Under the pieces are notes generated by a model. It was not told the DNA's origin. It was given only the letters and a program-made list of their open reading frames with translations, and searched no databases. A stretch of 64,000 bases of DNA from Clavelina lepadiformis. Its lineage: Eukaryota > Chordata > Ascidiacea > Aplousobranchia > Clavelinidae. Shown piece after piece: positions 58,943 through 61,900 of this stretch. Made by a program: the position numbers and the translations under genes. The stretch covers positions 3,722,501 to 3,786,500 of the forward strand of contig NC_135247.1 of assembly GCF_947623445.1 (NCBI RefSeq). Direction: 5' to 3'. Every line of letters starts with the position of its first letter. The first letter of the stretch is position 1.

Positions 58943-61900
58943 TTATCCCCCATACGGATTTTGCACTTTGCCCAAGCAGTGAGAGAGACGAATATCAAGT
59001 TGATGATAAATATGCTGGTTTGCATTTGGTCCCCCGTTAATCGAGTGAGCCTCATCGGCGTAGAACTGCAAAGTATAGGAAATTCGTTAAAATTCCTTTC
59101 CTGTTTTCAAAGGAAGTGAAAATCAACAAGCTAAAAATGCCATCGATTTAAACTGAACAGCATCATCTAGCGGTTAAAGTTTTATTCTTTCGACAAGGTA
59201 ACTTTATAATGTTACCAAATACTGGTTTGGAATGTCGTATCGGAGTCTGTAGCAACGCCCGAAACATAATACCGTGGACTTTTTAAATCATTTTAACAGT
59301 TTATTTTTACAAAATCAATAAAAAGCTCTTACAAAGTCATCAAAATCAACGTCTGCCTCGACAAGGGCTTTCTCCATCTGCGCCGCACTCTGAAAGTGAA
59401 CGTTGTCGTCGGCTGTTCCGTGAATCAGAACATAATTGGAGTTCTTGAAGTTAGTCAAGTTGTGTCCGGTGACTATTGAAGCTTTCTATACAATAACAAC
59501 AACAACAAATTTTTACCCAACACGTGCACTCGCAATCCAGGTTTAGGTTTTGCGGTTGAAAGAAAGTTGATCGAGTTAAGTTGAACATATAACGTGCGTT
59601 TAAAAGTTGTTACTAAAAATCCTATAAGTGACAAAACGAGAAGTTATGAAAGGCAAAATACATTCGCAGAAGCGGGAAAGACAACAAAAGCAAGCAAGGC
59701 ATATTTTTGCAACCATGCCTAATCTTTTTACTTACGTCATAGCCAACAACATTATCCTCTGGCTTGACCATGTATCTCTCGGCATACATTGCATCTAAAC
59801 CGTTATAGCATAAAATAGTACCTTTATAATGATTATATACGTCTAAAACTAAATCAGCCATTCGTATAACATAACGAAAATGGACAGATTAATAGTAGTT
59901 TTGTTTTGCCAAGTTATAAAAATATTTACTTTGTACATGTTATATTTCAAGCTTAATCAAGTTGGTTTGATTAAGTAGCATGCATATCGCTTAAGTTTCG
60001 TGCAGAAGAAAAACATTTGTTTGTGCAAGAACTTGATTGCGTGATTGGTCTTCACAGACACACTTACCGTACCACCTCCAGCTTCCTAGGGGAGCGACGG
60101 CGACTCCACACTTGTAAGTGTTTCCTGCGTCATAACCGAGTGTGTGTGACGTGATGTATCCCCCGTAAGACTGAAATTAATTACATCAAAATCATTTACA
60201 TCAGTGTTTAATATCACGTCACAAACGTAATTAAGCAAGATAAATTATAAGAAATAAGAGCAAAATTCAAGTCTCATAAGCAGCTTCAAGGGCAAAAATC
60301 AATTTTTTATAGTTTGGATAAATAACATGCTTGTTAAGTTTTGTTTTATTTTGTTTCTATTTTTTATTTTTGACAAAGGCAGGTCTGCAAATCTTGCCAC
60401 AAAATTACTAAATTTGAACCAGCTTACAGGTAAATTTAAAAGCAGGCTACGATGAGCAATAGATAGGGAATATGATAGGAATAGGGACAGGCTATGGTAG
60501 GCTATGTCAATTAGAGTATGGCGGCTCAACGCGCAAACAATTATATTCATTTATGCAAAAAAGACGAAAATCATTTTAACTCTCTCTTTACCGTAGTATC
60601 GTTGATCAACACACAGAGCCACAGCTACGCCACATTTAAAAGTTCCTGACCCCAGCCCAATGACATGCGTCGTAATAAAGCCGCCATAAGACTGCGTTTG
60701 TAAAACAAAAAAGCTTTCATGATTTGTTATCGAACGCGACATTCATCGCTGCTAAAGGCAACCCGGGATAAAAGCTTGGATCTTTATTGGTCGGAAAGTT
60801 TGCCTAACTGACTAACGACTATAAAGCGGACCAAACTACGACGAAAACAAACATGTAACACAAAGCCACTGCATTGGAAGCGGTTTACTGAGAACGCAAA
60901 CCCACTTAACGCAATGATGCCATCTTACCCAGCCCCATATTGCAACGTTTTCAGCGTCGATGTAGGAATACGTGTCGACAAGATAGTTTGCAAAATCGGT
61001 CTGGTCCTCTGGTTCGTATTGTCCGAGCTTCTTGTACGTTTGTCTCATAAATTTGTAACCTGTACAATAAAATTAAAATTTAAGAAAACCACTAAAAATA
61101 CGAAAACAGAAAAATAATTTGTTGGTTCATTTGGAACTTTTCTTCCTTTTTACCACTTTACCTTCAAAAGCCGATCCTCGTCCATCCACACTGACCACTA
61201 TAATATCCCTTGCACTGACCATGTAGGTCTGTGCAAATCCTTTCCTCCATTTTTCATCAACTTTCTGGAATTCAGGTCCTGCGTATCTGTCAAATTGGAA
61301 TATATTAAGTTGCCTTATTTTGCCTTTTTTGTGATATTATTTAGGGCTTCGTTGTGTACTTATGTGTTTGAATTTAGGTAGTTTTTATCAAGAATACAAA
61401 TGAATAAATTATTAACTTACACTTCAACTAGTAAAGGATATTTCTTTTTTTCGTCAAAGTCCGCAGGAAGCCAAATCTCGTAATTGTACGCTGAAAATTG
61501 TTTTCAATTACGCCACCATATCCACTAATTATTAATTATTACAAGTCAGAATACACGAAAAAGAAATTTAGTATGACTCACGTTTTTCATATTTTGCACT
61601 TTTAAAGGTTCTGTATTCTCTGTTTGGCCACTTCACTTCAGCTACTTTATTTGCCAGATCATTGTTATTCTCCAGGATGGTTGGAGCCTTATCCCATGCT
61701 CCATCCTTGTTTATGGCGATTTTGAGTGTCATAGGGATCCAGTTGCCTTTATGTAACACAGTAATAACATTTAAGAAGCTTGCTGTTGTGCTCAAGTAAG
61801 CAGTAATACGCGATGCTGTCTCAATAAGTGTTACGTTAATGATAGCGTTCACTGTACGTTCACGTTCACAGTACAGCATATTAAAGACTTGTGTTAGTTT

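Follow-up and report, generated by a model that had tools for sequence, protein, structure and literature searches.

Tandem exons around the catalytic serine of a DPP4-like gene in the ascidian Clavelina lepadiformis: a predicted exchange of S1-pocket residues

DPP4 is a peptidase that trims peptide hormones and inactivates them, and it is the S1 pocket that makes it favour proline or alanine at P1. We know of no alternative catalytic exon in DPP4 or FAP. The exchange of exons at the substrate site of an enzyme is a known kind of arrangement, coq-2 and ACSL6 being examples. The coq-2 gene of C. elegans, and of other animals that make rhodoquinone, gives two products: its two homologous, mutually exclusive exons exchange part of the active-site core and differ from each other in conserved residues close to the substrates (PMC7434440). 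In ACSL6 and ACSL1, a mutually exclusive pair exchanges a substrate-gate motif, the fatty-acid gate domain, and an ACSL1 isoform with neither exon has been reported (PMC1543647). Human tandem duplicated exon substitutions are also tandem and mutually exclusive, and leave the protein identical outside one homologous segment (PMC9741552); the terms "peptidase" and "DPP" are absent from the main text of that paper. Among the matches listed from titles and abstract starts in open-licence PMC, none concerned a dipeptidyl peptidase with mutually exclusive exons, nor was another DPP4-family case of exon exchange at the substrate site found there. Two papers that name DPP4 use the words "mutually exclusive" for other subjects, namely beetle chemoreceptors (PMC8956072) and EYA4 (PMC13429693, which has DPP9 assays elsewhere in it).

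In this study, we examine two tandem exons, a and b, in a DPP4-like gene of the ascidian Clavelina lepadiformis. As in COQ-2, homologous exons would swap part of an active-site core; unlike in COQ-2, the catalytic serine itself lies inside the swapped exon. COQ-2 is a prenyltransferase whose exon swap is proven by RNA-seq and by exon removal and is known from several phyla (PMC7434440), whereas the present case concerns a serine exopeptidase in one species and is known from genome sequence. The ACSL pair belongs to a different enzyme and exchanges a gate, as against an S1 pocket together with the nucleophile here (PMC1543647). Our main reading, to which we give a probability of about 0.6, is that a and b are mutually exclusive tandem exons, that isoform a would be a conventional DPP4, and that isoform b would prefer another P1 residue or be less active. 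One gene would thus probably yield two enzymes with different pockets. The stronger claim, that the serine-exon swap provides two active exopeptidases of different P1 preference from a single DPP4-family gene, is tentative, with the odds slightly against it.

The window, by which we mean the whole stretch of 64,000 nucleotides that was analysed (C8:3722501-3786500), holds on its minus strand the 3' part of the gene (Table 1). The window exons were checked by joining, for AG/GT borders and for frame, and comparisons with the species' own genome used a 209-Mb assembly of 95 contigs. The best matches of the C-terminal part, as joined isoforms, were DPP4 chains (270.7 bits with exon a, 269.3 bits with exon b), and the Pfam domain Peptidase_S9 scored 147.7 and 144.8 bits, respectively. 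Segments for the whole Ser-Asp-His triad are present (GWSYGG, DDNVHF and DEAH), with the triad residue numbering of human DPP4 taken from PMC3440348. The DPPIV_N propeller (PF00930) scored 241.3 bits; its upstream exons, put together by eye, are in L006/L007, outside the window. Over residues 6-442 of 442 the propeller can be aligned with FAP, and from roughly residue 57 onward also with DPP4 chains, and these upstream exons, aligned to FAP, contain WRHSY at the place of Arg125 and DWMYEEEM at that of Glu205/Glu206. Still further upstream in L007 is a frame, MAKTAYVVGGIVFGAVVVAAIVIPCVLIL, that may be a type II membrane anchor; taken as the first exon, it would give a coding span of about 12 kb. 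By its domains and triad segments the gene is a DPP4/FAP-type S9B peptidase, with predicted post-proline dipeptidyl peptidase activity, and it can be aligned across the propeller and hydrolase domains with DPP4 and FAP, whose structures have been solved (5vta and 6y0f, for example). No further duplicated exons were seen when the C-terminal exons were compared with the window and the N-terminal exons with L006/L007. An open frame (KAWNAFVQIVQNFLGKYRAENYSEL...EHGERFHQDISVMESRY; window 63344-63712, minus strand, plus L006:5717-6164) sits in the intron of 3 kb that precedes the YFTAAY exon. We take this frame to resemble part of a mobile-element protein; its window piece had no Pfam match at E 0.01.

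Table 1. Exons of the DPP4-like gene, in order of transcription, with positions numbered along the window
Feature	Position	Strand	Basis
Exon, end of DPPIV_N propeller (...NCRG)	62054..62238	-	AG/GT borders, frame, alignment
Exon NWIPMTLK...SAKYEK	61582..61746	-	DPP4 alignment, joined frame
Exon, 24 residues	61421..61490	-	DPP4 alignment, joined frame
Exon ...DGRGSAFEG, completes VYAGP segment with Tyr547 equivalent	61162..61286	-	DPP4 alignment, joined frame
Shared upstream exon ...AIWGW, ends in phase 0, donor GTAAGA	60929..61059	-	Frame and borders
Alternative exon b, 100 nt, 33 residues and one base	60592..60691	-	Borders, frame, DPP4 alignment, codon-position counts
Alternative exon a, 103 nt, 34 residues and one base; one residue more than DPP4	60068..60170	-	Borders, frame, alignment
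Shared downstream exon DAMYAERYM..., enters in phase 1, Tyr666 equivalent, 20 residues	59736..59794	-	Frame and borders
Exon with Asp708/Asn710/Val711 equivalents	59333..59485	-	DPP4 alignment, joined frame
Last coding exon, His740 equivalent (YADEAHSI) and stop codon	58943..59065	-	DPP4 alignment, joined frame

Both alternative exons are preceded by AG and followed by GT, and each has entry phase 0 and exit phase 1. Exon b begins with TCTTAT after AAACGCAG, and exon a with TCTTAC after AATTTCAG. The original prediction had placed the two exons exactly, and its claim that either exon joins correctly to one and the same pair of neighbours is borne out: with the window exons joined, exon a alone or exon b alone leaves the frame open to the normal stop. 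It had also held that including both exons shifts the frame, and joining both indeed brings a premature stop 13 residues past exon b, while skipping both brings one 23 residues past IWGW. Within the window, tblastn matched exon a to exon b at E = 7.8e-9, and no other match of either exon approached this value elsewhere in the 64 kb. Of 99 aligned bases, 45 to 49 differ between the two exons, according to where the gap is put.

From this frame arrangement we infer that each mRNA takes either a or b, and that double-inclusion and double-skip mRNAs would be frameshifted, lost through premature stops and probably degraded. Frame is the only exclusion device that was found for the pair. Pairing between intron RNAs was considered as another such device and gave no signal: the values of -86.1, -74.9 and -73.1 compare with shuffle means of -84.4, -72.1 and -68.6, and 12, 11 and 7 of 30 block shuffles were equally low. 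Steric exclusion was likewise considered; an intron of 421 nt separates b from a, has room for b-to-a splicing and argues against simple hindrance. The splice sites of a and b have scores within those spanned by the rest of the gene. On a matrix built from 14 further donors and 14 further acceptors of this gene, which is small and gives weak evidence either way, the acceptor of exon b ranks 4th of 16 and its donor (ACG|GTAAAG) 14th of 16, and exon a has the 13th acceptor and the 6th donor. In 10 kb, 5% of all AG score as well as the b acceptor and 55% as well as the a acceptor; for the donors, 9% of all GT score as well as that of b and 2% as well as that of a. These opposite site strengths would suit a regulated choice, on a matrix too small to lean on.

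The human residue numbers used here rest on alignments to DPP4 chains and on the S1 list of PMC3440348, which comprises Tyr631, Val656, Trp659, Tyr662, Tyr666 and Val711. The four members that had been named beforehand, Y631, V656, W659 and Y662, agree with that list. The swapped exon carries the nucleophile Ser630 and these four of the six S1 residues. Exon a has Leu656 and Trp659 and exon b has Cys656 and Gln659; Ser630, Tyr631 and Tyr662 are kept in both, as is the Gly-Gly in exon b. The alignments thus uphold each of the residues originally called. Exon b additionally has Leu in place of Pro655, a change absent from the original prediction. As a yardstick for these positions we used bacterial relatives, the best 80 of 581 being kept and 79 being readable by pattern (L124 was not); selected for their likeness to the query, they do not form a random sample. 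In all 79, residue 655 is Pro, 656 is Val and 662 is Tyr; residue 659 is Trp in 78 and Tyr in one, and residue 631 is Tyr in 56 and Phe in 23. Exon a, too, departs from these relatives at 656, with Leu for Val. Throughout the swapped segment, isoform b aligns with DPP4 without a gap, which suggests that it folds. Isoform a is likely to be an ordinary proline/alanine-type DPP4. In isoform b, the wall of the S1 pocket would be more polar and less hydrophobic, reshaped by Cys656, Gln659 and Leu655, and such a pocket may confer another P1 preference or weaker activity, between which the sequence does not decide.

Changes at these positions can also be sought among the paralogues of the species. 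In paralogue P2 (C8:12939098; L011:7099) there is an exon, SYGGFTTSHAIGLDTDILKCGMAVAPLVDWRYY, whose borders and phases match those of a and b; no second copy of it was seen at the P2 locus, and Pro655 and Trp659 are kept in it. The two DPP4-like copies on chromosome 6 read APVTKW and APVTRW. A third copy near them (C6:7617893-7618246; L022, L008) looks broken, with IWGRSYGG and a stop at the place of Trp659. Another DPP4-like paralogue, at 1.09 Mb on C8 (C8:1094067-1094516; L030, L051), keeps GWSYGG and continues APLATRFLY...DSIHTERYM. Judged by eye, it has Arg at the place of Trp659 and His at that of Tyr666, a further natural S1 change; within the species, change at 659 is therefore not limited to exon b. 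Finally, a gene at C8:4338917-4342309 (L024, L050) has GSGYGG in place of GWSYGG and so is without the catalytic serine; we take it to be DPP6/10-like.

The P2 exon served as the yardstick for coding constraint, with counts made at sites where two of the three exons (a, b and P2) agree. Where a and P2 share a base, exon b alone departs from it at first codon positions in 3 of 24 cases, at second positions in 6 of 25 and at third positions in 10 of 13. The excess at third positions, 10 of 13 against 9 of 49 first and second positions, has a Fisher p of 1.5e-4 to 2.0e-4 over three gap placements and a permutation p of 2.6e-4. A third-position bias is also found in exon a (p 0.004 to 0.009) and in P2 (p 0.003 to 0.009). 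When the 37 differences between b and P2 were placed randomly on P2, a stop arose in 73% of 20,000 runs, and the observed identity of 21 of 33 residues was reached in 0 of 20,000 neutral runs. Such a bias is unexpected of an unconstrained exon and argues that exon b has been maintained as a coding exon. The view that exon b is real coding sequence, and that both copies have been under coding constraint since they separated, is thus supported by these counts. The signal is uneven along the exon. In codons 1-25 the b-unique changes number 2 of 20, 2 of 19 and 5 of 8 by codon position; in codons 26-33, the pocket half, they number 1 of 5, 3 of 5 and 4 of 4, and this half taken alone has no clear constraint, its signal being weak.

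The exon pair is also old. NG86, LWL85 and YN00 returned no value for dS, and the maximum-likelihood values of 18.6 (a-b), 4.4 (a-P2) and 12.0 (b-P2) are saturated. A recent duplication was looked for through likeness of the three introns around a and b: local scores of 16, 22 and 15 compare with shuffle means of 18.9, 21.2 and 17.6, and 197, 72 and 194 of 200 shuffles score as high. Saturated synonymous distances and unalike flanking introns together argue for an old pair. An exon tree of 17 rows, 10 of them drawn from the 79 bacterial relatives that were readable, groups a, b and the P2 exon at 92/92, below the tool's mark for good support. The order of the three is unsettled in this tree, so that an exon duplication before the gene split is not distinguishable from one after it.

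Weak or lost activity of isoform b is the main rival to a change of specificity. DPP4 dimerises, and exon b may be used, and used exclusively, with a product that is weak or inactive and still a sound subunit; splicing would then tune the amount of active enzyme and not its specificity. We consider this unlikely, though it is the most probable of the alternatives. The loss in b of Trp659 and Pro655, each so uniform in the bacterial relatives, speaks for it, as do the scant constraint in the pocket half and the existence of relatives without the serine, such as the DPP6/10-like gene at C8:4.34 Mb with its GSGYGG. Against it, exon b retains Ser630, Tyr631, Gly-Gly and Tyr662 in a stretch that is gap-free relative to DPP4, and dead S9B proteins are usually those without the serine. 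The original proposal of a mutually exclusive pair that swaps the S1 pocket therefore stands in part: the tandem duplication, a frame logic that allows one exon only, the coding constraint on b and the alignment-based changes at 656 and 659 all favour it, and the weak constraint signal in the pocket half of b leaves altered specificity unseparated from relaxed or lost activity.

It is more improbable still that exon b was long functional and has recently become a relic that is rarely or never spliced. The alteration of b at near-invariant positions and the low rank of its donor are what such a history might leave; nevertheless, exon b has no stop or frameshift, its AG and GT are intact, it has the better acceptor of the pair, and its unique changes are biased to third positions. 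An assembly artefact or a chance exon-like sequence is hardly credible, nothing having been found in its favour: the assembly comes from HiFi reads at 117-fold coverage (PMC10884593), the extent of the a-b differences means that b is no duplicated read of a, and the strength of the a-b match speaks against chance.

The stronger claim, of two active exopeptidases with different P1 preference from one gene, would, if true, describe a specificity switch by splicing, of which there is no report for the DPP4 family among the matches listed in open-licence PMC. A second natural pocket on the same scaffold, kept by selection, would be a ready-made experiment on residue choice. For the animal itself, such a pocket would imply that splicing, rather than gene duplication, can serve to retune the processing of peptides in a tunicate.
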